Positions 20,792 to 50,967 of a stretch of DNA of 64,000 bases are shown here, in pieces. The DNA comes from Rhodococcus pseudokoreensis (GTDB taxonomy: Bacteria; Actinomycetota; Actinomycetes; Mycobacteriales; Mycobacteriaceae): NCBI RefSeq assembly GCF_017068395.1, contig NZ_CP070619.1, positions 4,030,001 through 4,094,000 of the forward strand, given 5' to 3'. Made by a program: the position numbers and the translations under genes. Numbering within the stretch: position 1 is the first letter of the stretch; every line of letters begins with the position of its first letter. The notes under the pieces are model-generated. The model had not been told where the DNA came from, ran no database searches, and saw only the letters and a program-made list of their open reading frames with translations.

Positions 20792-22947
<2,156 letters not shown>

Positions 22948-22958
22948 ACACTGGCGGT

Positions 22959-22989
22959 GAGGACCTCCTCGATTCGTGAGGAGGTCCTC
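22959..22989. terminator. Terminator between rox and the ABC importer genes
   Basis: Perfect 12-bp arms GAGGACCTCCTC and GAGGAGGTCCTC with a 7-base loop, between convergent genes, so probably used in both directions. Confidence 0.75.
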
Positions 22990-23034
22990 GGCCGACTCAG
23001 GACAACACGCCGGCCGCACGTTCCCACCCGGCAC

Positions 23035-24189
23035 TCATGACCACAGCGCGACCGTCCATGCCGGGTCCAGGACGACGGTCACGTCGTCGCCCGGGTGAGC
23101 CCGCAGGTGCGCGTCGGCGTGCGCGCGGAGCGACACGTCCCCGACGGTGACGACCATCTCCTGGCGGTCGCCGAGATACTCGGTGGTCACGATGCGTCCC
23201 GGGAACCGGTTGGGGCCGTGGGTTTCCCGATCTTCGGGGATGATGCGGATGTTTTCGGGCCGGATGCACACGAACATTTCCTGGCCGGCGGCAGGCGGGG
23301 TGGGTGGCGTGGTGAAACGCTCACACCGCACCACTCCGACGGTCGTCTTGGCGTCGACGACGCGGTCGCCGGAGCCCGCCGGCCGGTCGAGCACGCCGGG
23401 GATGAGGTTGGCGCTGCCGACGAAGTCGGCCACGAACCGCGTCGCCGGCGAGTCGTAGATCTCGCTCGGGGACCCGATCTGTTCGACCCGGCCACGGTTC
23501 ATGACCACGATCGTGTCGGACATGGCCAGGGCCTCACCCTGGTCGTGCGTCACGTAGATGGTGGTGACGCCGAACTTCTGCTGGAACGAGCGCAACTCGG
23601 CGCGCAGTTGTGAGCGCAGCTTCGCGTCCAGGTTGGACAGCGGCTCGTCGAGCAGCAGGACCTCCGGCTCGCACAGCAGCGCGCGGGCCAGCGCCAGGCG
23701 CTGCTGCTGACCGCCGCTGAGCTGGGTGGACCATCGGTCCGCGTACTCCGACAGGCCCACCTGTTCGAGCATCATCCGGACGCGACGCTCCCGCTCGGCG
23801 CGAGGGTACGTCTTCCGGCCGTACTGCAGGGGGAACGCGGCGTTGTCGAACACCTTCATGTGCGGCCAGATTCCGTAGGACTGCGGCACCATCGCGATCG
23901 GCCGGACGTCGGGAGAAACGTCGCGCCCCGCCGCGGCGGAGAAGACGGCCTGACCGTTCATCCAGATCTCGCCGCTGTCGGCGGTCTCCAGCCCGGCGAG
24001 GCAGCGGAGGGTGGTCGTCTTGCCGCACCCACTGGGCCCCAGCAGGGTGAAGAAGCTGTTCTGCGGCACGGAGAAGCTGACATCGTCGATGACGCGGGTC
24101 ACCTCGCCGCTGTGCGGGCGGGTGAAGTGCTTCTGCAGGCCGGAGATCTGCACGGAATGGTCGGAACCAACGAGGTTTTTCATGTTCAC
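23035..24189 (-). CDS. ABC importer ATPase (iron/polyamine type)
   Basis: A 384-residue ATP-binding subunit of the FbpC/PotA type. Walker A GPSGCGKTT, Q-loop region MVPQSYGIWPHM, signature LSGGQQQRLALARAL, Walker B LLLDEPLSNLDAKLR and switch THDQGEALAMSD are complete; a C-terminal TOBE domain follows (CIRPENIRIIPED, VTTEYLGDRQEM). It overlaps no neighbour but is 6 bp downstream of the permease gene, forming an ATPase-permease-binding protein unit. GTG 24189 and ATG 24183 are both possible starts. Substrate: see the binding protein. Confidence 0.9.
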   Translation of the reverse strand: MNMKNLVGSDHSVQISGLQKHFTRPHSGEVTRVIDDVSFSVPQNSFFTLLGPSGCGKTTTLRCLAGLETADSGEIWMNGQAVFSAAAGRDVSPDVRPIAMVPQSYGIWPHMKVFDNAAFPLQYGRKTYPRAERERRVRMMLEQVGLSEYADRWSTQLSGGQQQRLALARALLCEPEVLLLDEPLSNLDAKLRSQLRAELRSFQQKFGVTTIYVTHDQGEALAMSDTIVVMNRGRVEQIGSPSEIYDSPATRFVADFVGSANLIPGVLDRPAGSGDRVVDAKTTVGVVRCERFTTPPTPPAAGQEMFVCIRPENIRIIPEDRETHGPNRFPGRIVTTEYLGDRQEMVVTVGDVSLRAHADAHLRAHPGDDVTVVLDPAWTVALWS

Positions 24190-24195
24190 GGCACC

Positions 24196-25968
24196 TCAGA
24201 TGTGTTGTTGGAAGCCACGGCGGTTGACCCACCAGACGGAGACGGCGGACAGGGCGAGCAGGAGGACCGCGAGGGCACTGGCCTCGGGATAGTTCGCGCT
24301 TTCACCGATCATGTCCCACAGCAGCACCACGACGGTGCGGTTGTCGGAACTGGACAGCAGCAGCGCGATCGGAAGTTCGCCCAGCGAGTTGGCGAACACC
24401 CACAGCCACGTGCTCGACACCGCGGGAGCGACGAGCGGGAAGACCACCCGCCGCAGCACGACGGCGTTGGACGCACCGCTGACGCGTCCCACCTCTTCGA
24501 GTCCCTTGTCGAGTTGCAACAGTGCCGTCTGAATCATGCGTGATCCGCGCGGGATGTACCGGGTGGTGAACGCGATGATGATGATCCAGATCGTGCCGTA
24601 GATCGGGATGGGCAGGTACAGGTAGAGGAACAGCACCGCCATGCCGAGCACGACGCTGGGGATGGCGAAGACCAGGAAGGACAGATCGAACAGGCCCCTG
24701 CCGAGGCGCCCGGCGCGGGTCGAGGCCAGCGCCAGCCACAGGGCGAATCCGGCAGTCAGCGTCGCCGTGATCAGGCTGATCACCAGGGTGTTGACGACCG
24801 CGTGCGTCAGATTCGGGTTGGTGAAGATTGCGCCGTAGTTGGCGAGGCTGAGCGCACCCAGGTTGTCGAAGTTGATCGGCTGCAGGTACGGGGTCAGGCT
24901 CGTCCAGACCAGGGTCAGGATGGGCACGATGATCGCGACGAGAACGTAGAACGAGACGATGCCGGCAACCGGGATGCGCCACCGCCCCAGCCGCACCGGT
25001 GTGGACCGGTACCCCTTGCCTCCCACCACCTGGAATCGGTGGGACTCACGGGTCTGACGCCGGTAGACGGCGATCATCACGAGGGACAGCAGGACGAGCA
25101 TGATGCCGTAGGCACTGGCCTGGCCGTAGTTGGCCAGACCCGACGGCGGCTGCAGGGACGCCTGGATGAGACTGCTGAACACGAAGATCTGGTCCGGCAT
25201 TCCGAGGATGGCCGGGATCGCGAACTCCTCGAGCGCGATGACGACGAGCAGCATGCTTGCCGCGGAAATCCCCGGCATCGTCAGCGGCAGAACCACTTTG
25301 CGGGTTCGCGTCCACCAGCCGGCACCCGACGTGGCCGCGGCCTCCTCGAATTCGAGGTTGAGCCGGGCGAACGTCGGCGCGAGCATGATGTACATGCCCG
25401 GGACACCGAAGATGCCGGCCACCAGGATCATGCCCGGCAGCGAGTAGATGTCGATCGAGAGCCCGAAAACCCGCTCGATGACGATGGCGATCGGGCCGTT
25501 GGTGGGGTTGGCGGCCAGGACCCAGGCCACCGCCATGACCGTCGCAGGCACGGCCATGGGGGCCAGCGTGCTCGGTGCGAGGAAACGGCGACCCGGAATG
25601 TCGGTCCGCTCGAACAGGTAGGCCAGGCTGACGCTGACGACCAGCGCCAGTGACACGGTGCCGACCACGAAGACGAACGAATTGAGCGCAACGTCGACGA
25701 GGCGCTTCGAGGAGAAGACCGCTGTGAAGTTGGCGAGCGTGAACCCGGAAACCTGGAAGGGCAGCTTGGTCTCGCTGTCCTTGAGGCTGCTGAACAACAG
25801 CATGCCCAGGGGGAAGAGCATGAGATAGGCGACGATCCCGCCGATGGCGATGTTGACGCCGACCAGGACGCGGTCCCGGCGCTTGGGGTGGTGTACGTCG
25901 GCGGGCTGAGGGCGTACGTCGTCGGGTCGAGGGCGTACGCCGGTGGAGAGCTGGGTGCCGGACTGCAT
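24196..25968 (-). CDS. ABC importer permease, two fused permease domains
   Basis: A 590-residue integral membrane protein with about 12 helices, containing two BPD_transp_1 modules in tandem. Each has an EAA loop: EAAATSGAGWWTRTRKVVLPL in the first half and the EEVGRVSGASNAVVLRRVVF region in the second. Fused permeases of this kind occur in FbpB-type iron and in some organic-anion importers. A hydrophilic N-terminal tail contains a short internal repeat (RPRPDDV/RPQPADV). ATG 25968 is taken as start with GGAGA upstream; an in-frame TTG at 25983 is the alternative. Confidence 0.88.
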   Translation of the reverse strand: MQSGTQLSTGVRPRPDDVRPQPADVHHPKRRDRVLVGVNIAIGGIVAYLMLFPLGMLLFSSLKDSETKLPFQVSGFTLANFTAVFSSKRLVDVALNSFVFVVGTVSLALVVSVSLAYLFERTDIPGRRFLAPSTLAPMAVPATVMAVAWVLAANPTNGPIAIVIERVFGLSIDIYSLPGMILVAGIFGVPGMYIMLAPTFARLNLEFEEAAATSGAGWWTRTRKVVLPLTMPGISAASMLLVVIALEEFAIPAILGMPDQIFVFSSLIQASLQPPSGLANYGQASAYGIMLVLLSLVMIAVYRRQTRESHRFQVVGGKGYRSTPVRLGRWRIPVAGIVSFYVLVAIIVPILTLVWTSLTPYLQPINFDNLGALSLANYGAIFTNPNLTHAVVNTLVISLITATLTAGFALWLALASTRAGRLGRGLFDLSFLVFAIPSVVLGMAVLFLYLYLPIPIYGTIWIIIIAFTTRYIPRGSRMIQTALLQLDKGLEEVGRVSGASNAVVLRRVVFPLVAPAVSSTWLWVFANSLGELPIALLLSSSDNRTVVVLLWDMIGESANYPEASALAVLLLALSAVSVWWVNRRGFQQHI

Positions 25969-26040
25969 CGCTGAAGTCTCCAAGGGTGAGGGGATAGAGT
26001 CTGCCGCCCGTCACGGGCAGCGGTGCGGCGGTGGGAGCCG

Positions 26041-27102
26041 TCAGTTGACGTTGGTACCCAAGGCCTCTTCGACCTCGGGAAAGAAATCTGAGAACTGCTC
26101 GTACTGCGCGAGGTCGGTTTCGCCGAACCATTCGACGCCGGCGGCACACAGGGCGCCGATGACACGGTTCGTGGCGGCGTCGGTGCAGTCCGTGTTGGTG
26201 GGGATGGCCGAGTTGTACGTGTCGACCAGGGCGGACTGGCCCTCTTCGGAGGCGAGGAAGGCGGTGAGCAGGCGACCGGCCGCCGGGTGCGGGGCCCCGT
26301 CGGCCACGAACAGGTAGGACTTGTTGGCGTTCGTGGGGCCGACCGGTGCGACGGCGACCGGCGCGCCCTTCGCCTCGTCCTCGAGCACGAGGTTGATGAG
26401 GTCGGTGCCGACCGGTGTCTGACCGGACACGACGAGTGTGTGGGCCTGCGTCGTGTTCTCGGTGTAGTGGGGGTTCAGCTCGGCCAGCCGGGACGCGTAG
26501 TCGAGACCGGCGTCGGTGCTGAGGGCCGGGTCCTGGGCCCACACGGTCATGAAGGAGCCACGCGACTCGACGCTGAGTTTTCCGCCGTTCCATCGCGGAT
26601 CCAGCAGGTCGTTCCAGCTCGCGGGCACATCATTCGGGGACAGGGCGTCGGTGTTGTAGGCCCAGACCTTCGGTACCGCCCACACGTAGACGAAGTCGTC
26701 GGCGAAGATCTGGTCGCTGGGCACCTCGTAGGATGCCCAGTCGACCTTCGCCGCCATGGACTGCGACGGCAGGACCGTGAGCCCACCTGCGTTGGACACG
26801 TCGAACGTCACCCGGTCGGCGGCCTGCTCCACATTGAGCTGGGTGACCAGATCCGGTGCCTTCTTGTTCGTGTACCGGACCTCGATCCCCGGGTATTTCT
26901 TCTCGAACGCGTCGATCGCCGGCTTCATCTGAGCCTCCGGCTTCGGCGCGAACCAGACGACCTCCCCTTCGGCCTTGGCCGCCTGGTACAGCTCGTCGAG
27001 GTTCTTGGTGTCCGGAACGGGCGGCGGACCGCCGCAGGCGGTCAGGACGACGGCGACTGCCATGACCGAGGCCATGCAGAGCCTGCGCCGAAAGCGCTTC
27101 AT
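26041..27102 (-). CDS. ABC importer substrate-binding lipoprotein
   Basis: A 353-residue extracellular solute-binding protein. The N-terminus is a lipoprotein signal (basic MKRFRRRL, hydrophobic core, lipobox LTACGG with Cys23). The mature fold is of the iron/thiamine-type periplasmic binding class 2: AAKAEGEVVWFAPKPEAQMK, KYPGIEVRYTNKKAPDL, SWNDLLDPRWNGGKLSVESR. The tyrosine pair used by true ferric-binding proteins is not evident to me, so an organic acid is plausible given the catabolic neighbours. Start ATG 27102; ATG 27114 overlaps the upstream stop. Confidence 0.88.
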   Translation of the reverse strand: MKRFRRRLCMASVMAVAVVLTACGGPPPVPDTKNLDELYQAAKAEGEVVWFAPKPEAQMKPAIDAFEKKYPGIEVRYTNKKAPDLVTQLNVEQAADRVTFDVSNAGGLTVLPSQSMAAKVDWASYEVPSDQIFADDFVYVWAVPKVWAYNTDALSPNDVPASWNDLLDPRWNGGKLSVESRGSFMTVWAQDPALSTDAGLDYASRLAELNPHYTENTTQAHTLVVSGQTPVGTDLINLVLEDEAKGAPVAVAPVGPTNANKSYLFVADGAPHPAAGRLLTAFLASEEGQSALVDTYNSAIPTNTDCTDAATNRVIGALCAAGVEWFGETDLAQYEQFSDFFPEVEEALGTNVN

Positions 27103-27107
27103 AGCGA

Positions 27108-27992
27108 TCAACATTCCTTCGCGGCAGTGGTGACGGAGCTGCCCCGGGAGAGCCCGTACAGCCGGCCGGCGGTGCCGCCCGCGATCAGTTCCAGGTCGGA
27201 TGTGTCGAGTGACGGCAGTTGCTCCCTGATGAGGTCGGCCAGCTCTGCCAGCGATCCGGCCGAGGCGGGGAAGTTCGAACCCCACATGACGTGGGCCGCG
27301 CCGAACTCCTCGATCAGCGTGCGGACCAGCGGTGCCGCGGATCCGCTCTCGCGCTGCGCGCGGAGTACGGCCGGCGGCGTGATCTTGATGAACACGCGGC
27401 CCGTCTCGCTGAGCTGGGGAACTCCGTCCGCGCTCGGGTACGGCGCGGAGTCCAGTTGCGGTCGGCCCGCGTGGTCGAGGATCGCGGTGAGTCCCGGGTA
27501 CTGCTGGAGGAGCCCGGCGAGGATCGGAGCGTGCTGGGCGTGCATCTGGATGCAGACCGGCACCCGGCGGTCGGACAGGAACTGCCAGACCGGCGCCATG
27601 CGCTCGTCGTCGAGCCCGCGGCCGGGCGTCGGGACGGCGGTCGTCCCGTCCGCGGCCCGGATGCGGACCCCCGAGAAGCCGCGCTCGTCGATCCAGTGGT
27701 GGAGGTCGTCGACCACCTTCGGGGAGAGGAAGTCCACCGAGCACACCCCGCTGAGGCGGTCGGGGTGCCGTGTGAGCTGGTCGGCTACGTAGCTGTTGTC
27801 GAATCCGTACACCGTGGAGGCCTGGACGACGACCAGGTGGTCGACGTCGGCGGCGTCGGCGGCGCGCAGCAGGCCGTCGATGTCGGTGGGTCGTTCCTGG
27901 GACCAGGTGGACCGGTGGCCGCCGAGCGGATCTGCGGGGTAGGCATCGGTGTCGGGCGAAATGATGTGGGTGTGTGTGTCGACGCTGAACAT
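27108..27992 (-). CDS. Amidohydrolase family 2 protein (lactonase/PDC-hydrolase-like)
   Basis: A 294-residue TIM-barrel hydrolase of the amidohydrolase_2 group that contains 2-pyrone-4,6-dicarboxylate lactonase (LigI) and other lactonases. HxH is in VDTHTHIIS at the N-terminus, then CIQMHAQ and LDHAGRPQ, and MWGSNFPAS where LigI-type enzymes carry a catalytic Asp. It is a clear paralogue of the protein at 35662-36513 (shared DTH-HIIS, YPxxPxGG, VQAxTxYGxDNSYV, PDR). GAGGT precedes the ATG. It leads the ABC importer genes on this strand, so hydrolysis follows uptake. Exact substrate unknown. Confidence 0.8.
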   Translation of the reverse strand: MFSVDTHTHIISPDTDAYPADPLGGHRSTWSQERPTDIDGLLRAADAADVDHLVVVQASTVYGFDNSYVADQLTRHPDRLSGVCSVDFLSPKVVDDLHHWIDERGFSGVRIRAADGTTAVPTPGRGLDDERMAPVWQFLSDRRVPVCIQMHAQHAPILAGLLQQYPGLTAILDHAGRPQLDSAPYPSADGVPQLSETGRVFIKITPPAVLRAQRESGSAAPLVRTLIEEFGAAHVMWGSNFPASAGSLAELADLIREQLPSLDTSDLELIAGGTAGRLYGLSRGSSVTTAAKEC

Positions 27993-28048
27993 CAGTACCT
28001 CACGACTGGTGGGTGGGGTGGCGGGCGGAAAGTGGCAGGCGGGCACGC

Positions 28049-28954
28049 TCAGGCGAGGTCGCCGAGGTGCCGGGTGAAGTCGTCGAGGAGTTCGGCCACC
28101 GTCACGGGTGTGCGGATGACGTTCTGCTGCAACGCGTAGTCGATCGCGATCTGCAGACCGGCGACGAGCTCGTCGGTCACTCCGAAGCGGAGGGCGCGCA
28201 CGCGGGGACCGGGCTCGGTTTCGGCGGCCTTGCGCGCCTCGATCCGGTCTCCGAAAGCCTGGTAGAGCGCCGATACCGTGCGGGGCTCGGCCTCGAGGAG
28301 GTCCCGCCGGACGGTGAGCACGTGGTTGATCGGCACCGTCTTGTGCCGGGCGCCCCACGCCTCCTCGGCCTCCCGCCAGTTCGGGATGATCGGCACCAGC
28401 GGCCCCTGCGCCCCGTCGAGCGCCGGCGGACCGAGGACCGCCGCCACGACGTCGCCGCGCCCCAGCACGTCGAGCACCTTGCCCGTCGTGCGCTCGACGT
28501 TCGGCGGCTCGACGTAGCTGGCGACGTGTGGCTCCTCGGTGGTCACCCAGGTGACTTCTTTGGCGTCGACGCCGAACTCCTCGTGCAGGATTCCGCGCAC
28601 CCACAGGCCGGTCGTCTGGCTGTAGGCCCGGACCGCGACCCGCTTGCCTGCCAGGTCCGCCGGGCTGATCTCGGCCGAACCGGGCCAGCGGGTCAGGGAG
28701 TGGTGGTGGAAGTCGCCGCTGAGCACCACCGGCAGCAGCGCGATCGGGGCGCCGGCCTCCCGGGCCTGCAGATAGGTGGCGATGGCCAATTCACTGAAGT
28801 CGTACCGGAGCTCACGCACCATGGGAGCGAACGCCTTGTAGATCGGATCCGCTGCCGCGAGCTCGACGGGATGCCCCTCGACGTTGAAGCCGGGTTCCGT
28901 GAGGAACGCCGTGTGCGGGTAGGACTTCGCCGCGATGGACAAGGTTGTGGACAT
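28049..28954 (-). CDS. 4,5-dihydroxyphthalate decarboxylase-like/PBP-fold protein (paralogue 1)
   Basis: A 301-residue cytoplasmic protein with the periplasmic-binding-protein type 2 fold used by 4,5-dihydroxyphthalate decarboxylase (Pht5) and its relatives. Marks shared with two paralogues in this window: RYDFSELAIATYLQAREAGAPI, RVAVRAYSQTTGLWVRGILHEEFGVD, and a W-V-T-TEEPHV strand. No signal peptide, so it is an enzyme or intracellular binder rather than an ABC binding protein. It heads the leftward transcript of the island and faces the promoter region with two TTGTNNNACAA sites. Confidence 0.75.
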   Translation of the reverse strand: MSTTLSIAAKSYPHTAFLTEPGFNVEGHPVELAAADPIYKAFAPMVRELRYDFSELAIATYLQAREAGAPIALLPVVLSGDFHHHSLTRWPGSAEISPADLAGKRVAVRAYSQTTGLWVRGILHEEFGVDAKEVTWVTTEEPHVASYVEPPNVERTTGKVLDVLGRGDVVAAVLGPPALDGAQGPLVPIIPNWREAEEAWGARHKTVPINHVLTVRRDLLEAEPRTVSALYQAFGDRIEARKAAETEPGPRVRALRFGVTDELVAGLQIAIDYALQQNVIRTPVTVAELLDDFTRHLGDLA

Positions 28955-28975
28955 GAATACAACTCCTCTGTTGCG

Positions 28976-29024
28976 TCCGAACCCGGGGAGTGCATGTGGT
29001 GTGCCTCCGAACCCGGGGAGTGCA
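28976..29024. repeat. 19-bp direct repeat, two copies
   Basis: TCCGAACCCGGGGAGTGCA at 28976-28994 and 29006-29024, identical and 30 bp apart (about three helical turns). It lies just upstream of the leftward gene start and may be a second regulator site. Confidence 0.6.
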
Positions 29025-29243
29025 CTGGTGTCAGTGCGCCGATGCCGTCATTCGACCGATGAGTGAATATCGGTTTTGTCTTACGGTTTCGCTCAATTTA
29101 CGCGGGAGTGACGCCCATTACAAGCCTTTGAGGCCCGGATCGTCTAACAACTTCGCGAAAGTCGGCGTGGAGCGGGCAGCGACGACTCCGGGTTCGCGTC
29201 CGGCGGCGCGACCACACTGGGAAAATCCACCCTCGATTCACGA

Positions 29244-29254
29244 TTGTTCTACAA
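29244..29254. promoter_or_regulatory. Candidate GntR operator 3
   Basis: TTGT-TCT-ACAA, matching the cores found before the gntR gene 8.5 kb away. Confidence 0.5.
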
Positions 29255-29352
29255 GATGAACCCGATCGAGCTGGGATTGACGGGCAATCCGATGCCAGGA
29301 AAACAAGTTCTTGCTGTTCGTCGCATCCCGCTGCTAGTCTGGCGACAGAAAG

Positions 29353-29363
29353 TTGTTAAACAA
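29353..29363. promoter_or_regulatory. Candidate GntR operator 4
   Basis: TTGT-TAA-ACAA, 109 bp downstream of operator 3 and 178 bp before the CoxG-like gene start. Confidence 0.5.
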
Positions 29364-29540
29364 TCCGAGAGCCGACCGGGGAGACTCGGATGATGCCAGA
29401 GCCATCTGGTGACCGGCCTGCTCGCTGCCGGCGAGGGCACGCCCTCCGACACCAGCTCGCTGATCGAGTCTCGCGAGTTTCCCCGAAGCGCCACAGTGGT
29501 CTGTGGTGGCTGTTCACGATCGCCAAGCGAGGACACAGTT

Positions 29541-30113
29541 GTGATAAAGATCGACGAAGCAATCGCCGTACCCGCACCACCGGGGCGGGTGTGGGAAGTC
29601 ATTTCCGACCCCACCGAGGTGGTGTCGTGCATCAACGGTGCCGAACTCGGACAGTTCCACGACGACGGCTCGTTCGACGGCACGCTGGTCGTGAAATTCA
29701 GCGCGATCCGGGTGCGGTTCGGCGCCCGGATGTCGCTGGAGCTGGACGAGCCCGCCTGGGAGGGACGACTTTCGGCGCGTGGACGGGACGGGCAGGGCGC
29801 GACGCGGTTCACCGCGCACGCGAACTTCCGGATCACCGAGGACCACGCGGGCGGCGCACGGGTGCAGGTGACCGGAGAGGTAGCCCTCGCGGGCAAGCTC
29901 GCGTCGGTGATCGAAGCGGGCGCCGGCGCCGTGGTGTCCCGGATGACCAACGACTTCACAGACGAACTGGTGCGCCGGTGCGCCGGGGACACGGCGGTCG
30001 TGCCTGCACCGAGTCGGCCGACCGTGTGGGCCCGCGTGCGCGCCTGGTGGCTCAGGACCATTCACAAGCGACAGAGCGAGCAGAGCGGAGTGGCAAGTGG
30101 CAAGACTCAATAG
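29541..30113 (+). CDS. CoxG/SRPBCC family protein
   Basis: A 190-residue START/SRPBCC-fold protein like carbon monoxide dehydrogenase subunit G. The start KIDEAIAVPAPPGRVWEVIS and the strand region CINGAELGQFHDDGSFDGTL are typical; the C-terminal tail is basic (RVRAWWLRTIHKRQ) and may associate with membrane or a partner. CoxG helps recruit molybdenum hydroxylases to the membrane, but none is present here, so a substrate- or lipid-binding role in this pathway is possible. GTG 29541 has GAGGA at 7 bases. It overlaps the aldolase gene by 17 bases. Confidence 0.8.
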   Translation: MIKIDEAIAVPAPPGRVWEVISDPTEVVSCINGAELGQFHDDGSFDGTLVVKFSAIRVRFGARMSLELDEPAWEGRLSARGRDGQGATRFTAHANFRITEDHAGGARVQVTGEVALAGKLASVIEAGAGAVVSRMTNDFTDELVRRCAGDTAVVPAPSRPTVWARVRAWWLRTIHKRQSEQSGVASGKTQ

Positions 30114-30951
30114 TGTGATCGGTGCGCTGGAATCGGGACAGCACGCCTTCGCGGCGTTCGCTGCTCCCGAGCCGGCGGCAGCGCTGGACTTCGCGACCAG
30201 CGACTACGACGGTCTGGTGTTCGAGGCCGAGCACAAGCCCTGGGACGCAACGACGTTGCGGGACAGCCTGCAGTACCTGCTCAACCGGCGACGGATATTC
30301 GAATCGGGCACGCTCGCCCCGTCGCCCACCCCGCTGATCCGGATTCCCGTCAACGGCGCCGAACACGGCCAGTGGCATGCGAAGCAGGCACTCGATCTCG
30401 GAGCGTACGGAATCGTGTGGCCGCACATCAGCCGGGTCGAGGAGGCGCGCAACGCGGTCGCGGCCTGCCGGTACCCCCGTCTGCCGGGCGAGGAGCGGTA
30501 CGACCCGCCGGGTCTGCGCGGCGACGCGCCTGCCGCCGCCGCACGTTACTGGGGCCTGTCGAACGACGAGTACTACGCGAAGGCCGACGTGTGGCCGCTC
30601 GCCCCGGACGGCGAGATCCTCGTCGTGATCCAGATCGAGGATCAACTGGGCATCGAGAACCTCCCGGCGATCCTCGAACAGGTGCCCGGAATCGGTCTCA
30701 TCCTCATCGGCGAGGGCGATCTCAGCCAGGAACTGGGCGTGCCCCGCCAACTCGACCACCCGCTGATGGTCGAGGCCAGGAGCCGGATCGTGAAGATCTG
30801 TCACGACCACGACGTCGTGGTCGGCCATCCGCACGTGACCCCGGGCAACGTCGAGCAGGTGCTCGAAGAGGGCTACCGCTTCCTCATGTCCGCGCCGGTG
30901 CGCAGCTATCCCGGCCTGGAACTGGGCCGCAAACTCACCGGTCGCTCCTGA
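30097..30951 (+). CDS. HpcH/HpaI family class II aldolase
   Basis: A 284-residue TIM-barrel, metal-dependent pyruvate aldolase. Visible: LVFEAEHKPWD, GIVWPHISRVEEA, the metal-binding IQIEDQLGIENLP (Glu) and GEGDLSQELGVP (Asp), then VGHPHVT. Family members cleave 4-hydroxy-2-oxoacids to pyruvate and an aldehyde or keto acid. Placed directly before 4-oxalomesaconate hydratase, it probably cleaves 4-carboxy-4-hydroxy-2-oxoadipate to pyruvate and oxaloacetate, a step normally done by the unrelated LigK/RraA-like enzyme. A long insert at about residues 125-150 is unusual. GTG start with GGAG at 8 bases. Confidence 0.83.
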   Translation: MARLNSVIGALESGQHAFAAFAAPEPAAALDFATSDYDGLVFEAEHKPWDATTLRDSLQYLLNRRRIFESGTLAPSPTPLIRIPVNGAEHGQWHAKQALDLGAYGIVWPHISRVEEARNAVAACRYPRLPGEERYDPPGLRGDAPAAAARYWGLSNDEYYAKADVWPLAPDGEILVVIQIEDQLGIENLPAILEQVPGIGLILIGEGDLSQELGVPRQLDHPLMVEARSRIVKICHDHDVVVGHPHVTPGNVEQVLEEGYRFLMSAPVRSYPGLELGRKLTGRS

Positions 30952-30981
30952 CCCCGAACACTCACCTGGAGAAAAACCTTC

Positions 30982-32040
30982 ATGATCATCGACTGTCACG
31001 GCCACTTCACCACCGCGCCACCGGCGCTCGGACAGTGGCGCGAGCGCCAGATCAAGGCGTTCGAGGATTCGGGCGCGCGCGTCTCACCCGAGACGCTGCA
31101 CATCAGCGACGACGAGATCAGGACCGCAATCGAACAGGGGCAGCTGAAGCTCCAGATCGAACGCGGCACCGACCTCACGGTCTTCTCCCCCGGCGCGGGA
31201 AAGATGGCCCACCACTACGGCGACGAGCAGACCAGCCTGGTCTGGTCGCAGGTCAGCAACGACCTCATCGCCCGGGTGTGCGGCCTGTTCCCCGATCGTT
31301 TCGCCGCGGTGTGCCAGCTTCCGCAGTCGCCCGGCGACGCGCTGGCCTCGTCCATCCGGAACTCTGCCGCAGAACTCGAGCGCTGCGTCGAAGAACTCGG
31401 ATTCGTCGGCTGTCTCCTCAACCCGGACCCCTCCGACGGGTACTGGCAGGCGCCGCCGCTGACCGACCGGATCTACTACCCGCTCTACGAGAAGATGGTG
31501 GAACTGGACGTGCCCGCGATGATTCACGTCGCGATGTCCCGTAACCCCGCGATCCAGGGCACCTGCGCGCACTACCTCAACGGCGACACCGCCGCCTTCA
31601 TGCAGCTGTGCCAGTCGGACCTGTTCACCGACTTCCCGACGCTGCGGCTGATCCTGCCGCACGGCGGCGGCGCGGTGCCCTACCACTGGGGCCGCTACCG
31701 CGGGATGATGCAGGACCAGGGCAGGCCCCCTCTGGAGGAATCGTTGCTGCGCAACGTCTTCTTCGACACCTGCGTCTACCACAAGCGGGGCCTCGAACTG
31801 CTCACGGACATCATCCCCGCCGAGAACGTGCTCTTCGCCTCCGAGATGATCGGCGCCGTTCGCAGCGTCGACCCGGAGACCGGGCGCCGCTTCGACGACA
31901 CCAAGGCGCTGCTGGACTCCATCGACTCCATCAGCGACGCCGACCGGCAGGCGATCTACGGCGGCAACGCGCTGAAGGTGTTCCCGCGCCTCGCAAGCCA
32001 CGTCCGGAACCACCACAAGCAAGAAGAGGTCGCGCAGTGA
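30982..32040 (+). CDS. ligJ: 4-oxalomesaconate hydratase (LigJ type)
   Basis: A 352-residue amidohydrolase-fold hydratase that adds water to 4-oxalomesaconate, giving 4-carboxy-4-hydroxy-2-oxoadipate in the protocatechuate 4,5-cleavage and gallate pathways. The HxH zinc motif is DCHGH at residues 4-8. Stretches DLTVFSPGAGKMAHH, LNPDPSDGYW, PPLTDRIYYPLYEKMVEL, LPHGGGAVPYHWGR and NVLFASEMIGAVR agree closely with LigJ as I remember it. GGAG lies 10 bases before the ATG. The stop overlaps the GTG of the ThDP enzyme gene. No missing residue seen. Confidence 0.9.
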   Translation: MIIDCHGHFTTAPPALGQWRERQIKAFEDSGARVSPETLHISDDEIRTAIEQGQLKLQIERGTDLTVFSPGAGKMAHHYGDEQTSLVWSQVSNDLIARVCGLFPDRFAAVCQLPQSPGDALASSIRNSAAELERCVEELGFVGCLLNPDPSDGYWQAPPLTDRIYYPLYEKMVELDVPAMIHVAMSRNPAIQGTCAHYLNGDTAAFMQLCQSDLFTDFPTLRLILPHGGGAVPYHWGRYRGMMQDQGRPPLEESLLRNVFFDTCVYHKRGLELLTDIIPAENVLFASEMIGAVRSVDPETGRRFDDTKALLDSIDSISDADRQAIYGGNALKVFPRLASHVRNHHKQEEVAQ

Positions 32041-33689
32041 AGGTCTACGAAGCGCTCGCAGCAGCGTTCGCCGCCGAGGGCACCACGGATGTGTTCGGCA
32101 TGATGGGCGACGCCAACATGCACTGGATGAATGCCCTGGCCACCCGCGGGACGCGCCTGTACGAGGTGCGTCACGAGGGTGCGGGTCTGAGCATGGCGCA
32201 CGGTTACGCCCGCGCATCCGGCCGGCCCGGCGTCGTGACGACGACGAGCGGGCCCGGTACCGCGCAGCTGGCCACGTCGATGATCGTGGCGAGCCGGGCG
32301 CGCATCCCGCTGGTCGCGTTCTGCGGGGAGACGCCGCTGGGTGACGAGGGCGCTGTGCAGTACCTCGACCAGCGTCGGTTCGCCGCCGCGATCGAGTGCG
32401 AGTTCCTCCAGGTGACCAAGGCCGAGTCGGCCGCAGAAGTGGTGCAGCGCGCCTTCTACCTGGCCCGCACCCAATCCCGGCCGGTGATGATCAGCGCCCC
32501 GTTCGACGTGCAGCTGCAGGAGTTCGAGGACGACATGCCGTACGTCCCGTCCACCGAGCTGCTCCGGGCCCCGAAGCTGCTACCGCACCCGGACCGGATC
32601 CAGCAGGCGTGCGAAATCATCGGGGCGAGCAAACGAGTCGTGATCGTCGCCGGCCGGGGCGCCCGCAACGCGGAAGCAGGCGAGCAGATCCTCGCGCTTC
32701 AGCGTCGCACCGGCGCCCTGCTCGCCACCACGCTGCAGGCCAAGAACTGGCTCAGCGGCGACACCGAGTACCACGTGGGGATCGCGGGACTGTTCGGCAG
32801 CAGGCTCGCGATGGAGCTGCTGCAGGAAGCCGACTGCGTGGTGTCGGTGGGCGCGAGCCTCAACCACTACACCATCGAGAGCGGATACCTGTTCCCCGAA
32901 GCCCGGTTCATCCAGATCGACACGGCGCCGCACCTGGTGATGGGAAACGGTCAGGTCGCCGACTGTTACATGCAGGCCGACGCAGTCACCGCCCTCGATG
33001 CCCTGTCGGGCGCGCTGGGGGTTCGCGGTATCGAGATGGAAGGCTTCCACACCCCCGAGGTGCACGGCCGGCTCACGGCCCCGCTGATCGACCCTGCCGA
33101 CTACCGCAGTCAGCCGGGCCTTCTCGACCCGCGCGCGGCGATCTCGGTGCTGGACGCCGAACTTCCCGGCGAGATCGGGCTGGTGCTCGGCAGCGGACAC
33201 CAGACGGACTTCGGCACCATGCTCTTCCAGCGGTCCCGCGAGATCACCTCGAACTACGGCATGTTCGGTGCCATCGGCCAGGCCCCGCTGCTGACCATCG
33301 GAACCGTCGTCGCCAACGGCGGCAAGCCGACGTTCGTGGTCGAAGGCGACGCGAGCTTCCTGATGCACCTGTCGGAGTTCGAGACCGCGTGCCGCTACGG
33401 GCTTCCGGTGCTCGTGGTCGTCATGAATGACGAAGGCCTCGGCGCGGAGTACCACAAGGCGAAGGCCAAGGGCCTCGACCCGGAGCTCGCCGTCATCCCC
33501 ACCCCCGAACTCGGCACGGTCGGGAAGGCACTCGGCGGCGGCGGCGCCACCGTCCGCACGACCGACGAACTGCGCGCCGCGCTGGCCGAGTACGTCCGCG
33601 ACCCCCGGCCCACCGTGATCGACGTGCGCATCACCCGCGACGTGCTCAGCGTGCCGTACCGGCGCATGCAGTACGGCGAGGACGTATGA
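32037..33689 (+). CDS. Thiamine-diphosphate-dependent enzyme (acetolactate synthase-like family)
   Basis: A 550-residue ThDP enzyme with the three-domain order of the family: PYR domain with catalytic Glu47 (RHEGAGLSMAHGYAR), a central Rossmann-like domain (about 190-320), and the PP domain with EGDASFLMHLSEFETACRYG and VVVMNDEG forming the GDx-to-N ThDP motif. The likely reaction is decarboxylation or carboligation of a 2-oxoacid; it cannot be called acetolactate synthase because the flavin-binding and small-subunit features are not evident. Starts at a GTGA overlap with ligJ, so it is tightly linked to that pathway. Confidence 0.82.
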   Translation: MKVYEALAAAFAAEGTTDVFGMMGDANMHWMNALATRGTRLYEVRHEGAGLSMAHGYARASGRPGVVTTTSGPGTAQLATSMIVASRARIPLVAFCGETPLGDEGAVQYLDQRRFAAAIECEFLQVTKAESAAEVVQRAFYLARTQSRPVMISAPFDVQLQEFEDDMPYVPSTELLRAPKLLPHPDRIQQACEIIGASKRVVIVAGRGARNAEAGEQILALQRRTGALLATTLQAKNWLSGDTEYHVGIAGLFGSRLAMELLQEADCVVSVGASLNHYTIESGYLFPEARFIQIDTAPHLVMGNGQVADCYMQADAVTALDALSGALGVRGIEMEGFHTPEVHGRLTAPLIDPADYRSQPGLLDPRAAISVLDAELPGEIGLVLGSGHQTDFGTMLFQRSREITSNYGMFGAIGQAPLLTIGTVVANGGKPTFVVEGDASFLMHLSEFETACRYGLPVLVVVMNDEGLGAEYHKAKAKGLDPELAVIPTPELGTVGKALGGGGATVRTTDELRAALAEYVRDPRPTVIDVRITRDVLSVPYRRMQYGEDV

Positions 33690-33732
33690 CCGCGCGGGGA
33701 CTGTTCACGACCAACGAAACGAGGACTCGTCA

Positions 33733-34614
33733 ATGAAAATCGTATTGGGCAGAGACGATCTCGCTGCCGTCGCCGTCGAGGGGGCCGCGGCCGCCGGTGC
33801 CACGGCCGAACGTGTCGACATCCGGCCCGTGCACAAGGCATCGCGCGGTTTCGTGAACGACGCGGCGGCGGACGTGTGCGAGCTGGCCGTGGTGACGCTG
33901 CTGCAGGCGGCCGCGTACGACAAGCCGGTGGCGCTGCTGCCGATCACCATGCTCGGCCGGTACCAGCATCAGACCCTGGTGACGCTGGGCGAACTGGGCG
34001 TCGAAGGTGTGCGGGGCCGGAGCGTCGGCGTGCGCTCGTGGAGCCAGACCACCGGGGTGTGGCTGCGCGGGTTCCTCAGCGAGCAGTACGGCCTCGATCT
34101 CTCCGACGTGAACTGGCACACGTACGAGGGCGGGCACGTCGACGGGGCCACCGACCCGGAGTGGGTCACGCGCGCCCCCGAGGACGCCAGACTGCAGGCC
34201 GACTTCCTCGAAGGCCGACTCGACTACGGGATCATGGGCAATGAACTGCCCTCCGACGACCGGATCCGCACCGCCATTCCCAACGCGCTCGCGGTCGCCG
34301 CCGAATGGGCTGCACGCAAGGGTTTCGCTCCGATCAACCACGTGGTGGGGTTCAGCGCGGCGGCCGCCGACGAGGACCCGAAAGCCGTACTCGCGGTGTA
34401 CGACGCGCTGGCCGAGGCCGCCGCGACTACCGCTCCCACAGCGGGTCCGGTGAACCTGAGCCCCGTCGGGTTCGACGGTCTGCGCGGACCTGTCACCGAC
34501 GCCGCCCGCTACGCCTACGAGCAGGGGGTGCTGCCGCGCCGCGTCGAATTCGACGAACTGGTCGATCGCACCTGCGCCGCGCTCGGGGTGACCGCGTCCC
34601 GGCTCGGCGGCTGA
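33733..34614 (+). CDS. 4,5-dihydroxyphthalate decarboxylase-like/PBP-fold protein (paralogue 2)
   Basis: A 293-residue second member of the set. It keeps DVCELAVVTLLQAAAYDKPV, the strand VGVRSWSQTTGVWLRGFLSEQYGLD and a W-H-TYEGGHVDGA segment, and lacks a signal peptide. Paralogue 1 shares the QTTG-W-RG core. In Pht5-type enzymes this region lines the active site that decarboxylates 4,5-dihydroxyphthalate to protocatechuate. GAGGA precedes the ATG by 7 bases. It sits 43 bp after the ThDP gene in the same operon. Confidence 0.75.
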   Translation: MKIVLGRDDLAAVAVEGAAAAGATAERVDIRPVHKASRGFVNDAAADVCELAVVTLLQAAAYDKPVALLPITMLGRYQHQTLVTLGELGVEGVRGRSVGVRSWSQTTGVWLRGFLSEQYGLDLSDVNWHTYEGGHVDGATDPEWVTRAPEDARLQADFLEGRLDYGIMGNELPSDDRIRTAIPNALAVAAEWAARKGFAPINHVVGFSAAAADEDPKAVLAVYDALAEAAATTAPTAGPVNLSPVGFDGLRGPVTDAARYAYEQGVLPRRVEFDELVDRTCAALGVTASRLGG

Positions 34615-34649
34615 ACCACTCGCTCCTTCTGGAATACGAAAGGCTGAAC

Positions 34650-35630
34650 ATGAACACGCTCTCGGTCGCACTCGGCGACTACCAGCACGTGCAGGCCCTG
34701 CTGGGCGGCGACGTCCCGGTGAACGGCTACGACGTGAAACCGGTCGAGGTCAGCCCGATCATCGGCGCATACCGCCGGATGATCCGCGATCTCGAGTTCG
34801 ACGTGTGCGAACTCGCGCCGACCTCCTACCTGATGGCGTTGCAGGCCGGCGTTCCGCTCACCGGTATCCCGGTCTTCCTCAACCGCCGCTTCCACCACGC
34901 CGACGTGCAGTGCGGTTCGGCGTCGGGAATCCGCTTCCCCGCCGATCTCCAAGGCAAGCGGATCGGTGTCCGCGCGTACACGGTGACCACCGGGGTGTGG
35001 ATGCGCGGCATCCTGCGCGACGAGTACGGCCTCGACATCGACACCGTGAAGTGGGTCGTGGACGACGACGACCACATCGAAGGCCGTGCTCCCTCGAACG
35101 TCGAGCGCGTCACCGACGGCCGCTCGCTCGGCGAGTTGCTGCGGGCCGGCGAGATCGACGCCGCATTCAGCGGCAACGCCGGCACCGGACGTGCGGGGGC
35201 GCCGCGGGCCGGGTGGTCGGCGGCGGCCGAGCAACCCGCGGTCGAGGACGGGCCGTACCCGCTGTTCCCCGACCACGAGGTGCTCGCCACCGACTGGTAC
35301 CTGCGCACCGGGATCTATCCGCTGCACTCGGTGATCGCGATCCGCAGCGAACTTGTCGACCGCGACCCGGCGTTGCCCACCGCCCTGTACGCCGCATTCG
35401 CCGAGAGCAAGCGCCGTCAGATCGAGGCCGATCCGCAGTGGTCGGCGCTGCCGCGACTGGGCAAGCAGGCCAACAAGATCCAGGGCGATCCGATCCCCTA
35501 CGGTCTCGATGCCAACGACGCGAGTGTGCGCGCGCTCGTGAAGTACTCCCGGGACCAGGGGCTCCTCGACCCGGACTTCTCCACCGATCCCCACCAGGTG
35601 TTCGCCAAGGGCGAGTACCCGGACGCCTGA
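34650..35630 (+). CDS. 4,5-dihydroxyphthalate decarboxylase-like/PBP-fold protein (paralogue 3)
   Basis: A 326-residue third paralogue and the most Pht5-like: FDVCELAPTSYLMALQAGVP, FHHADVQCGSASGIRFPADL, RIGVRAYTVTTGVWMRGILR followed by DEYGLD, and KWVVDDDDHIEGRAPSNV. The HHADV and TVTTGVWMRG stretches are those I associate with true dihydroxyphthalate decarboxylases. Having three diverged copies in one operon suggests either subunits of a hetero-oligomer or enzymes for related carboxylated aromatics. GAAAGG precedes the ATG. Confidence 0.78.
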   Translation: MNTLSVALGDYQHVQALLGGDVPVNGYDVKPVEVSPIIGAYRRMIRDLEFDVCELAPTSYLMALQAGVPLTGIPVFLNRRFHHADVQCGSASGIRFPADLQGKRIGVRAYTVTTGVWMRGILRDEYGLDIDTVKWVVDDDDHIEGRAPSNVERVTDGRSLGELLRAGEIDAAFSGNAGTGRAGAPRAGWSAAAEQPAVEDGPYPLFPDHEVLATDWYLRTGIYPLHSVIAIRSELVDRDPALPTALYAAFAESKRRQIEADPQWSALPRLGKQANKIQGDPIPYGLDANDASVRALVKYSRDQGLLDPDFSTDPHQVFAKGEYPDA

Positions 35631-35661
35631 GCCAGCCCACCGAACGAGAAAGGTGTAGACC

Positions 35662-36513
35662 TTGGACATCGTCGACACCCACTGCCACATCATCTCCGAC
35701 GACGTGACCCGCTACCCCCGGGCCCCGATCGGCGGGACCCAGTCCGGTTGGGCGACCACCCGCCCGGTCACCGCCGACGGCATGGTCGAGCGCATGGACG
35801 AGGCCGGGATCGGCCAGGCCGTACTGGTACAGGCCACAACCGCCTACGGCTACGACAACTCCTACGTACTCGACAGCCGGGCGCAGCGGCCGGACCGGTT
35901 CATCGTGGTGGGCACGGTGGATCCATTGCGGCCGGACGCCGCCGACAACCTGGAGGCCGCGGTCGGCGACACCGGCCTCGCCGGGGTCCGGCTGTTCACC
36001 AGCGGCAGCACGGTGCCCACGCAGGGCGAGTGGTTCGCCGCGCCGGAGACGTATCCCTTCTGGGACAAGGCCACCGAACTCGGAGTCACGGTGTGCCTGC
36101 AGATGCGGCTCGGTCCGGCAACCGAACAACTGCATCTTCTGCTGCGCCGGTTCCCGAAGGTCCGCGTGCTGCTCGACCACATGGGGTACCCCGACATTGC
36201 CGCCTCGCCCACCGATGCCGGTGAGACTGTGGCGGAGTTGGCTGTTCACCCCGCCCTGCACCTCAAGCTGACCCACCGCAACCTCGAACGCCTGCACGAC
36301 GCCGGCACGAAGGCCGCAGGTTTCCTGGATCCGGTGCTCAAAAGCTTCGGAGCGAACCGGATCGCGTGGGGCTCCAACCTTCCCGCCGCGGAACAGTCGC
36401 TGCCCGAACTCGTCGCCCTCGCCCAGGAGGTGCTGGCCGAGGTTCCCGAGCCCGAACGCCGGGAAATCTTCGCGGGCACGGCACGACGGCTGTACCCCGG
36501 CCTGGCCGGATAG
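35662..36513 (+). CDS. Amidohydrolase family 2 protein (paralogue of the 27.1-kb gene)
   Basis: A 283-residue TIM-barrel hydrolase related to LigI. HxH in VDTHCHIIS at residues 4-12, then VQATTAYGYDNSYV, GVRLF, VCLQMRLGP, LLDHMGYPDIA and AWGSNLPAAEQ. As in its paralogue, Asn stands where LigI-type enzymes use Asp in the last barrel strand. A TTG at 35662 with AAAGG at 8 bases is the start. It closes the rightward operon. One of the two paralogues may open 2-pyrone-4,6-dicarboxylate to feed ligJ; the other may act on a related lactone. Confidence 0.8.
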   Translation: MDIVDTHCHIISDDVTRYPRAPIGGTQSGWATTRPVTADGMVERMDEAGIGQAVLVQATTAYGYDNSYVLDSRAQRPDRFIVVGTVDPLRPDAADNLEAAVGDTGLAGVRLFTSGSTVPTQGEWFAAPETYPFWDKATELGVTVCLQMRLGPATEQLHLLLRRFPKVRVLLDHMGYPDIAASPTDAGETVAELAVHPALHLKLTHRNLERLHDAGTKAAGFLDPVLKSFGANRIAWGSNLPAAEQSLPELVALAQEVLAEVPEPERREIFAGTARRLYPGLAG

Positions 36514-36623: not shown

Positions 36624-37850
36624 ATGACCGTCCTCTCCGGCCTCCGCGGACAAACCTTCGCGTCGCTGCGCACCACCAACTTCCGCCGCTACATCACCGG
36701 CCAGACGATCTCGCAGGCCGGCAAGTGGATGCAGACTATTGCCCAATCATGGCTCGTCCTCGAACTTTCCGGCTCCGCCACCGCAATCGGGGCGGTGATG
36801 GCGTTGCAGACCGTGCCGATGCTCCTCGTCGCCCCGTATGGCGGCGTCGTCGCCGATCGGGTCGACAAGCGACGCCTGATGATCGCCCTGCAAACCTTGA
36901 TGGGGGTGCAGGCACTGGTCCTCGGAATCCTCACCGTCACCGGAACGGTCCACCTCTGGCACGTCTACGTTCTCGCGCTCGTGCTCGGCCTCAACCAGTG
37001 CTTCGAAACTCCGACACGCCAATCGTTTCTGCTCGAGATGGTCGGGGCCGATCAACTGCGCAACGCCGTCAGCCTGCAATCGGTGCTCACCTCCACGGCC
37101 CGCATGGTCGGTCCTGCCATCGCCGGGCTCGTCATCGCCGCCGGCGGTGTCGGACTGTGTTTCCTTCTCAACGCCGCAAGTTTCGTCGCGGTCGTGATCT
37201 CCCTGCTCACCCTCGATGTCTCGCAGCTGAATCCGTCGCCGCCAACAACCCGGGCTCGCGGCCAGCTCCGCGAGGGTCTCGCGTACGTCCGGCAGTCCTC
37301 CGAACTGACCGTACCGCTGACCATGATGGCGCTGGTTGGTTGTTTCGCCCTCGAATTCCCCGTGGTCCTGCCGGTGATCGCCGACCAGACCCTCGACGCC
37401 GGGCCGGGCGCATACGGCTTCATCACCGCCGCGATGGGCGCCGGATCGGTGATGAGCGGACTCGCGGTCGCAACCTGGGGCCGTACCGGAACCCGGCCGC
37501 TCGTCCTCACCGCGACGGCGTTCGGAGCCGCTCTCCTCGTCGCCGCGGTCGCCCCCAATCTCTGGGTCATGCTGGTCGTCATGGCCTGCGTCGGAGCATG
37601 CAGTGTCGCGTTCAACTCGACGACGAACAGCACACTGCAACTTGCCGCCGCACCGGACAAACGCGGACGGGTCATGGCCCTGTTCGGCATGGCATTCATC
37701 GGATCCACCGCGGTCGGCGGACCCATCACCGGATGGGTGTGTGAGCAATGGGGCGGCCGCGCAGGACTGCTTCTCGGAGCCGTCGCCTGCCTGATCGCCG
37801 CAGCCATCGGTGCGCTGCGTCCGAGAGACCGAACTCGGCCACCGACCTAG
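36624..37850 (+). CDS. MFS transporter, DHA3/EntS-like
   Basis: A 408-residue 12-helix transporter of the drug or siderophore exporter type (DHA3). It opens RYITGQTISQAGKWMQTIAQ, has the loop 2-3 signature GGVVADRVDKRRLM, FETPTRQSFLLEMV after helix 4, and ends LLLGAVACLIAAAIGALRPR. Substrate unknown. GGGAGGA precedes the ATG by 10 bases. A terminator separates it from the catabolic operon, so it may be independently expressed. Its stop overlaps that of the convergent kinase gene by four bases. Confidence 0.82.
   Translation: MTVLSGLRGQTFASLRTTNFRRYITGQTISQAGKWMQTIAQSWLVLELSGSATAIGAVMALQTVPMLLVAPYGGVVADRVDKRRLMIALQTLMGVQALVLGILTVTGTVHLWHVYVLALVLGLNQCFETPTRQSFLLEMVGADQLRNAVSLQSVLTSTARMVGPAIAGLVIAAGGVGLCFLLNAASFVAVVISLLTLDVSQLNPSPPTTRARGQLREGLAYVRQSSELTVPLTMMALVGCFALEFPVVLPVIADQTLDAGPGAYGFITAAMGAGSVMSGLAVATWGRTGTRPLVLTATAFGAALLVAAVAPNLWVMLVVMACVGACSVAFNSTTNSTLQLAAAPDKRGRVMALFGMAFIGSTAVGGPITGWVCEQWGGRAGLLLGAVACLIAAAIGALRPRDRTRPPT

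Positions 37851-47575: not shown

Positions 47576-50023
<2,448 letters not shown>

Positions 50024-50517: not shown

Positions 50518-50518
<1 letters not shown>
50102..50518 (-). CDS. VOC family protein (glyoxalase-like)
   Basis: A 138-residue single-domain VOC protein: ITIHQTYLPQDDPDAALGFY opens the fold, LRWITVGPVGQPGTSIVLHP and DCAFRDPAGNMVRIQEL close it. Substrate unknown; such genes are frequently paired with AraC regulators that respond to the same compound. Its ATG at 50518 overlaps the AraC stop (TGATG), so the pair is coupled; ATG 50512 is also possible. Confidence 0.85.

Positions 50519-50967
<449 letters not shown>

Follow-up and report, generated by a model that had tools for sequence, protein, structure and literature searches.

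Why should a Rhodococcus, expected in the preliminary description of this locus to cleave protocatechuate by the ortho route, carry the lower part of a 4,5-cleavage pathway with no ring-cleavage dioxygenase beside it? The question is raised by a 64,000-nucleotide stretch of the Rhodococcus pseudokoreensis genome (contig NZ_CP070619.1, positions 4,030,001 to 4,094,000), called here, at its full length, the window. In it, a homolog of the 4-oxalomesaconate hydratase LigJ lies among genes for an HpcH/HpaI-type aldolase (HpcH), a thiamine diphosphate (ThDP)-dependent enzyme, two amidohydrolases (AH_A and AH_B), three dihydroxyphthalate-decarboxylase-like proteins (PhtA, PhtB, and PhtC), a CoxG-like protein, and an ATP-binding cassette (ABC) importer. 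These genes belong to a conserved two-operon unit (window positions 20792 to 36513) that is a real, conserved variant of the 4-oxalomesaconate lower pathway. The variant is apparently undescribed; no published account of the unit was found in the open-license literature, in keeping with the preliminary suggestion of an undescribed pathway. We lean toward the view that the unit imports and degrades a polycarboxylated acid derived from a ring, ending in pyruvate and oxaloacetate, with entry enzymes that are exchangeable elsewhere.

Conservation of the unit

We compared 86 LigJ loci, consisting of the best 80 of 582 confirmed places and six plasmid records picked from 80 listed matches. A gene family was scored as present when a single reference sequence, in most cases drawn from these very loci, gave a tblastn match no more than 9 kb from LigJ. 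Many of the locus contigs are short, so that absences weigh less than presences, and all locus counts given below (HpcH versus RraA and the others) ignore relatedness among loci that are not independent. The HpcH gene was found at 49 of the 86 loci, 17 of them actinobacterial and 32 from other bacteria, leaving 37 LigJ loci without it. Genes for HpcH, LigJ, the ThDP enzyme, at least one Pht protein, and at least one AH protein occurred together in every one of the 17 actinobacterial loci of this LigJ group, and because this core set recurs in 17 of 17, the gene arrangement is beyond chance.

The system is no peculiarity of Rhodococcus; it occurs also in Streptomyces, Amycolatopsis, Nocardia, Actinomadura, Nonomuraea, and Actinospica, and a shared core is found in Proteobacteria. 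Its distribution is rare and patchy. Within the genus, LigJ at 94 to 100% identity was present in 4 of 28 genomes, that of R. pseudokoreensis included, and a fifth had a relative at 39% identity. Across the phylum, 7 of 396 genomes had a LigJ at an E value of 1e-60 or below, two of which (R. pseudokoreensis and G273) were of the window type, with at least 85% identity.

In the window, the ORFs (open reading frames) of all the named genes are intact and match the families first assigned to the aldolase, ThDP enzyme, CoxG-like protein, three Pht-like proteins, and importer, the last of which lies inside the unit. The left arm, on the minus strand (23035 to 28954), encodes the ABC ATPase, a fused permease, a lipoprotein binding protein, AH_A, and PhtA, and the right arm, on the plus strand (29538 to 36513), encodes CoxG, HpcH, LigJ, the ThDP enzyme, PhtB, PhtC, and AH_B. 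Inside each arm the spacing is operon-like, with neighbors overlapping or at most about 60 bp apart.

LigJ and the HpcH aldolase

The hydratase homolog at the center of the unit is a clear one, as the preliminary description had it. LigJ (30982 to 32040, plus strand) aligned along almost its entire length to solved 4-oxalomesaconate hydratases, with 447 and 431 bits, compared to 212 bits for LigY; the match to PDB 6dxq was 446.9 bits over residues 1 to 340. It retains the HxH, MIHV, PHGGG, SEM, and GAVR blocks of 6dxq, which we take to be metal and substrate ligands. By sequence, the hydration step is well supported: LigJ would convert 2-keto-4-carboxy-3-hexenedioate (KCH), an isomer of 4-oxalomesaconate (OMA), to 4-carboxy-4-hydroxy-2-oxoadipate (CHA).

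LigK is listed as the CHA aldolase in the accessible part of PMC12314914. A LigK-like RraA gene was found at none of the 49 loci with HpcH and at 20 of the 37 other LigJ loci, and for this reason HpcH (30097 to 30951, plus strand; PF03328, 81.6 bits against a cut-off of 25) is likely the CHA aldolase standing in for LigK, a moderately supported assignment under which it would cleave CHA to pyruvate and oxaloacetate. Canonical LigA or LigB was likewise confined to loci without HpcH (0 of 49 versus 8 of 37), as was LigC (0 of 49 versus 4 of 37). Locus L075, whose HpcH and LigJ genes stand next to canonical LigI and PrpF (LigU), also speaks for HpcH as the aldolase. Opening of a trihydroxylated ring such as that of gallate between hydroxyls yields 4-oxalomesaconate with no need of a dehydrogenase, and the absence of LigC fits a substrate that enters as oxidized as gallate or an open acid.

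A quite unlikely alternative is that LigJ has a different tricarboxylate as its substrate in this unit, which would then degrade a nonaromatic tricarboxylic acid from plants or fungi. In the rhizobial loci L025 and L037 the core adjoins genes for a tripartite tricarboxylate transporter and MmgE/PrpD, and L027 and L039 similarly carry PrpD and TctA, with no match to TctC; none of these four loci matched a ring-opening reference, and the window itself combines an importer with no oxygenase. Against this alternative stand the retention of the 6dxq residue blocks in LigJ, the presence of ring-opening, Rieske, or FAD oxygenase genes in other relatives, and locus L075, where the same HpcH and LigJ genes adjoin canonical LigI and PrpF (LigU).

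The AH and Pht proteins

AH_A (27108 to 27992, minus strand) and AH_B (35662 to 36513, plus strand) are PF04909 proteins (119.9 and 126.9 bits) whose best PDB matches reached 37.8 and 37.7 bits. They share the HxH, Asp-His, and Lys columns with the LigI and galactaro-lactone isomerase branch of the amidohydrolases and differ in having Asn in place of the LigI Asp. This catalytic Asp of the GTDWPH motif, presumably the general base of LigI, was present in 8 of 8 canonical LigI proteins and is Asn in both window proteins. The substitution is nearly universal among their relatives, occurring in 44 of 44 AH_B loci, 7 of 8 AH_A loci, and 115 of 118 readable AH_A homologs (among 120 listed of 620).

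Because the catalytic Asp of LigI is replaced, hydrolysis of 2-pyrone-4,6-dicarboxylate (PDC) by these proteins is unlikely, and judging from their sequences AH_A and AH_B are probably not pyrone hydrolases. Of the earlier label "LigI-like lactonases," the likeness survives as a distant one and the lactonase function probably does not. Work by Bouvier from 2014 reportedly described a LigI relative that is a lactone isomerase, a property said to be explained by the absence of the LigI general base. By analogy, the AH proteins, as Asp-less LigI relatives, are perhaps lactone isomerases rather than hydrolases. An importer, two proteins of a LigI-related fold family, and LigJ downstream are also what might be expected if the window form imported PDC and AH_A or AH_B were true PDC hydrolases; we regard this as very improbable, given that the two proteins, like almost all of their relatives, carry Asn and that no role would remain for the Pht proteins.

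AH genes accompany HpcH (40 of 49 loci, versus 2 of the 37 others) and lie close to Pht genes. Among the 50 AH genes of loci with HpcH, a same-strand Pht gene was found within 350 bp in 26 cases and within 1.5 kb in 19 more, with neither in 5. The window repeats the pairing, AH_A lying beside PhtA and AH_B beside PhtB and PhtC.

PhtC (34650 to 35630, plus strand) aligns over residues 4 to 305 to the solved 4,5-dihydroxyphthalate decarboxylase (PDB 9jp7) with 127.9 bits. PhtA (28049 to 28954, minus strand; 35% identity to PhtC, 143 bits) and PhtB (33733 to 34614, plus strand; no Pfam match; 28% identity to PhtC and 32% to PhtA) are tied to the decarboxylase family only through their 28 to 35% identity to PhtC. 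Database records name proteins of this type ABC substrate-binding proteins. Because PhtA, PhtB, and PhtC all lack a lipobox and have less hydrophobic N termini than the binding protein of the importer (0.49 to 1.44 versus 2.43), they resemble cytoplasmic enzymes. One or more Pht genes were present at 45 of 49 loci with HpcH, compared to 7 of 37 others. The known decarboxylase differs from this setting, in which three paralogs stand beside amidohydrolases and no Rieske match occurs in the window.

Replacement of LigU (PrpF) by a Pht protein was also considered, PrpF having been found at 0 of 48 loci with PhtA, PhtB, or PhtC and 8 of 38 without. Two PrpF genes are present elsewhere in all four unit-bearing Rhodococcus genomes, and because of them this idea stays a guess.

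Ring opening

No match to PF02900, the LigB family that covers the GalA and DesB types, was found in the window, nor did tblastn (E value of 1e-4 or below) return a match there for the references for LigA, two LigB types, VOC, and DUF3500. References for LigC, PrpF, RraA-type LigK, and Rieske proteins were equally without a tblastn match in the window. A glyoxalase-like ORF of 139 amino acids (50102 to 50521, recognized by eye) lies about 14 kb from the unit. The preliminary description, which had reported no LigAB, DesB, or GalA homolog in the window, also called for a genome search for an unlinked 4,5-dioxygenase; that search gave three PF02900 matches, all unlinked, of which C6:5980782 and C6:7849154 are 1.9 and 3.8 Mb distant from the unit and the third is on contig C1, and no match to LigA (PF07746) anywhere in the genome. 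The adjoining intradiol-dioxygenase genes (PF00775) at C6:7534237 and C6:7534848, which by position and size appear to be PcaG/PcaH, fit the ortho route expected of Rhodococcus.

The LigB of contig C1 was rejected as the missing dioxygenase, the same weak type (37 to 41 bits) being present in five Rhodococcus genomes that lack the unit (G004, G010, G011, G016, and G027). It scored 40.6 bits to PF02900 and belongs to another aromatic cluster (L100:8827-13460), which by eye also holds genes for a Rieske dioxygenase, a dehydrogenase, and an amidohydrolase. That setting, together with the PrpF and RraA genes that the genome has at other sites, could suggest a canonical gallate or protocatechuate lower pathway with a distant dioxygenase and with LigU and LigK supplied in trans, the Pht, AH, and ThDP proteins serving some other purpose. 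We consider this unlikely, since the genome has no LigA match, the C1-type LigB also occurs where the unit does not, and HpcH, Pht, AH, and LigJ are kept together across classes and phyla.

Related clusters do carry candidates for the ring-opening step. DUF3500 was present in 9 of the 17 actinobacterial clusters (8 loci, and L005 when its contig was read further), while a divergent LigB (LigBx) was present in 13 and a VOC protein in 2 of the 32 other loci with HpcH. The statement that the pathway lacks a ring-cleavage dioxygenase accordingly stands for the window form and fails as a general one. LigBx is far from known LigB proteins (27 bits to PDB 1b4u) and is annotated in two records as "protocatechuate 3,4-dioxygenase"; in L033, L042, L093, and L094 it is part of a proteobacterial operon with the order PhtC-LigJ-AH_B-transporter-LigBx-HpcH-ThDP-Pht. 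The DUF3500 gene is accompanied in several loci by genes for a carboxylesterase, an SsuA/SsuC-type importer, and a 7-bladed lactonase. A DUF3500 protein has been proposed, in the accessible part of PMC12388069, to open 1,2,3,5-tetrahydroxybenzene as a dioxygenase in gallate breakdown by Aspergillus nidulans. One DUF3500 relative is solved (PDB 9x86, Amc20; 103 bits to the L014 protein), and among the literature matches listed no paper fitted Amc20 by title.

The VOC and FAH genes of L092 and L059 prompted consideration of flavonoid A-ring cleavage (fde and ifc clusters). This candidate was set aside, as the accessible part of PMC11069340 mentions no amidohydrolase, oxalomesaconate, or decarboxylase for that route, and that of PMC4440368 none either.

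Apparently exchangeable entry forms

By entry gene, the 17 actinobacterial clusters comprise 7 with AH_A only, 8 with DUF3500 only, 1 with both, and 1 with neither. Scored within 9 kb, the counts were 8 AH_A only, 8 DUF3500 only, 1 neither, and 0 both (Fisher test, 0.0004, ignoring relatedness); with the L005 contig included they became 7, 8, 1 neither, and 1 both (Fisher test, 0.003, again ignoring relatedness). Strict exclusion of the two was ruled out by this contig, a single 25-kb sequence of Streptomyces sp. 8L (L155, L005) on which window-type and DUF3500-type parts lie side by side.

In a tree of five core proteins, computed for this purpose with an L005 row that is partly paralogous (a long branch, its PhtC and AH_B orthologs lying beyond the analyzed locus), the well supported branches imply a minimum of three changes of form and the best tree implies five, counted without L005 and L011. 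The core of L009 (AH_A form) was 93% identical to that of L010 (DUF3500 form), compared to 75% to that of the window. The absent ring opener is better explained by such exchangeable entry parts than by loss of LigAB genes. The window form can exist without DUF3500, because four genomes that have this form (G009, G427, G428, and G429) have none. Within Rhodococcus no clear link between DUF3500 and the unit emerged, DUF3500 being present in 3 of 4 genomes with the unit versus 7 of 24 without (Fisher test, 0.12).

The R. pseudokoreensis genome has a single DUF3500 gene (PF12006), about 27 kb to the left of the unit in a separate operon. At L112:11170-16979, DUF3500 and an FAD monooxygenase occur with, by eye, an FAH hydrolase, an MFS transporter, and a GntR regulator; this is a separate catabolic operon, in which DUF3500 could be the ring-opening step. 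The proximity of the DUF3500 gene to the unit lends something to a rather unlikely alternative in which the Pht proteins decarboxylate an aromatic polycarboxylate while its ring is still closed, as in 3,4,5-trihydroxyphthalate to gallate, and the gallate is then cleaved to 4-oxalomesaconate by an enzyme not linked to the unit. The analogy is with 4,5-dihydroxyphthalate decarboxylase, which yields protocatechuate and to whose solved form PhtC is clearly related, and all 49 loci with HpcH lack LigC. Against this alternative, the DUF3500 gene shares a separate operon with FAD monooxygenase and FAH genes, four window-form genomes are devoid of DUF3500, and the AH proteins are left unexplained.

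Proposed pathway

These observations are best accommodated, in our judgment, by the importer-fed breakdown of a polycarboxylated acid proposed at the outset. The ABC importer would take up the acid, and the AH and Pht proteins would rearrange and decarboxylate a lactone- or enol-type intermediate, with Pht as decarboxylases or tautomerases and AH perhaps as lactone isomerases. The LigJ hydration of KCH and the HpcH cleavage of CHA would follow, and the ThDP enzyme may act on a 2-oxo acid. In the window form ring opening would take place outside the unit, the substrate probably entering already opened or the ring being opened by an unlinked enzyme; in the sister clusters it would be provided by exchangeable DUF3500, divergent LigB, or VOC enzymes.

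Several points weigh against this model. At 26 of the 49 loci with HpcH no ring-opening reference was found within 9 kb, in part owing to contig ends, and at 4 of the 49 (L018, L062, L072, and L075) no Pht gene was seen. Members of the PrpF and RraA families are encoded elsewhere in the R. pseudokoreensis genome, and LigU or LigK steps could proceed in trans. Because Streptomyces sp. 8L bears both kinds of part on one contig, the DUF3500 and AH_A parts may be halves of one pathway and not alternatives, and 7 of 11 window-form genomes, that of R. pseudokoreensis included, have DUF3500 at some location. The supported branches of the tree offer only three independent pairs, all opposite in form (sign test, P = 0.25, with L005 treated as bearing both). 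The isomerase role of the AH proteins leans on the Bouvier precedent, and substrate, product, and activity alike are sequence-based proposals only.

A bolder version, which we put forward tentatively, as a possibility short of an expectation, is that the unit represents an undescribed central module of Actinomycetota and Proteobacteria. Asp-less LigI relatives and decarboxylases with a substrate-binding-protein fold would make the LigJ substrate from a carboxylated ring-opening lactone, HpcH would replace LigK, and three unrelated, exchangeable families would open the ring, DUF3500 being a new class of oxygenase; the window would be the importer-fed form without a ring opener.

Relation to known systems

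The unit shares LigJ, and probably also the end from CHA to pyruvate and oxaloacetate, with the lower pathway of protocatechuate 4,5-cleavage known from Sphingobium SYK-6 and the Comamonas pmd genes. It differs in lacking LigA, LigB, LigC, canonical LigI, PrpF (LigU), and RraA-type LigK and in having an HpcH-type aldolase and additional Pht, Asn-type AH, ThDP, and CoxG genes. With the gallate and syringate pathways (GalA to GalD; Pseudomonas sp. NGC7, as presented in the accessible part of PMC12314914) it would share the proposed end intermediates OMA, KCH, and CHA. The window, however, has no LigB-family gene, the nearest on the chromosome being 1.9 Mb away, and has LigJ in place of the GalB type and HpcH in place of GalC, with GalB and GalC not searched by name. 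In G026, adjoining PrpF (C19:175716) and RraA (C19:176963) genes resembling a GalD/GalC pair lie about 29 kb from LigJ. Other actinobacterial routes include a meta-cleavage operon of Pseudarthrobacter with a single-subunit protocatechuate 4,5-dioxygenase (accessible part of PMC8431788) and the protocatechuate 3,4-route of Gordonia (accessible part of PMC10333787).

If the model is correct, actinobacteria can pass through 4-oxalomesaconate-type chemistry with no need of LigAB, LigI, LigU, or LigK, and DUF3500, Asn-type LigI relatives, and dihydroxyphthalate-decarboxylase-like proteins are joined in one testable pathway. Rhodococcus and Amycolatopsis are lignin-conversion hosts, which a new funnel into pyruvate and oxaloacetate could serve. 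The unit is compact enough for deletion in one step.

Limits of the unit and neighboring genes

The unit is larger than first reported, beginning not with AH_A but with a GntR/FCD-type regulator gene (20792 to 21511, plus strand; 57% identity over 216 amino acids to the GntR gene of L016) that is part of it; in 14 of the 17 actinobacterial loci, a GntR gene of this type lies no more than 9 kb from LigJ. The importer follows on the minus strand, with an ATPase of the polyamine/aminoethylphosphonate-like type (23035 to 24189; PhnT2, 329 bits, under the cut-off of 457.7), a fused permease (24196 to 25983; PhnU2, 117 bits, under cut-off), and a binding protein (26041 to 27114; SBP_bac_1, 55.5 bits) with a lipoprotein signal, the lipobox lying within residues 1 to 40. 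On the plus strand, the CoxG-like protein (29538 to 30113) scored 44.8 bits to COXG (cut-off, 22.2), and the ThDP enzyme (32037 to 33689) has three TPP enzyme domains and falls under all NCBIfam cut-offs shown.

Positions 22980 to 36513 are collinear with three other Rhodococcus genomes (L097, L098, and L099) at 88.8 to 95.3% DNA identity, and the G+C content of the unit is 0.65 to 0.70, compared to a window range of 0.64 to 0.71 in 2-kb steps. Genome G009 carries the unit at 92.5% DNA identity. An MFS gene to the right (36624 to 37850) is absent in L098, and a rifampin-monooxygenase gene (21508 to 22947) is absent at that place in L099; because each is missing from one relative, both seem to lie outside the unit. 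The latter (plus strand; NCBIfam rif_monoox, 880 bits, cut-off 800) sits between the GntR gene and the importer. Adjoining the MFS gene is an ORF for a 1,088-amino-acid protein (37847 to 41113, minus strand) with, by eye, a protein-kinase-like start and a LuxR-type end. Further along, an ORF on the minus strand (47576 to 50023) encodes an 815-amino-acid UvrA-like protein scoring 693.5 bits, just under the UvrA cut-off of 729.8.

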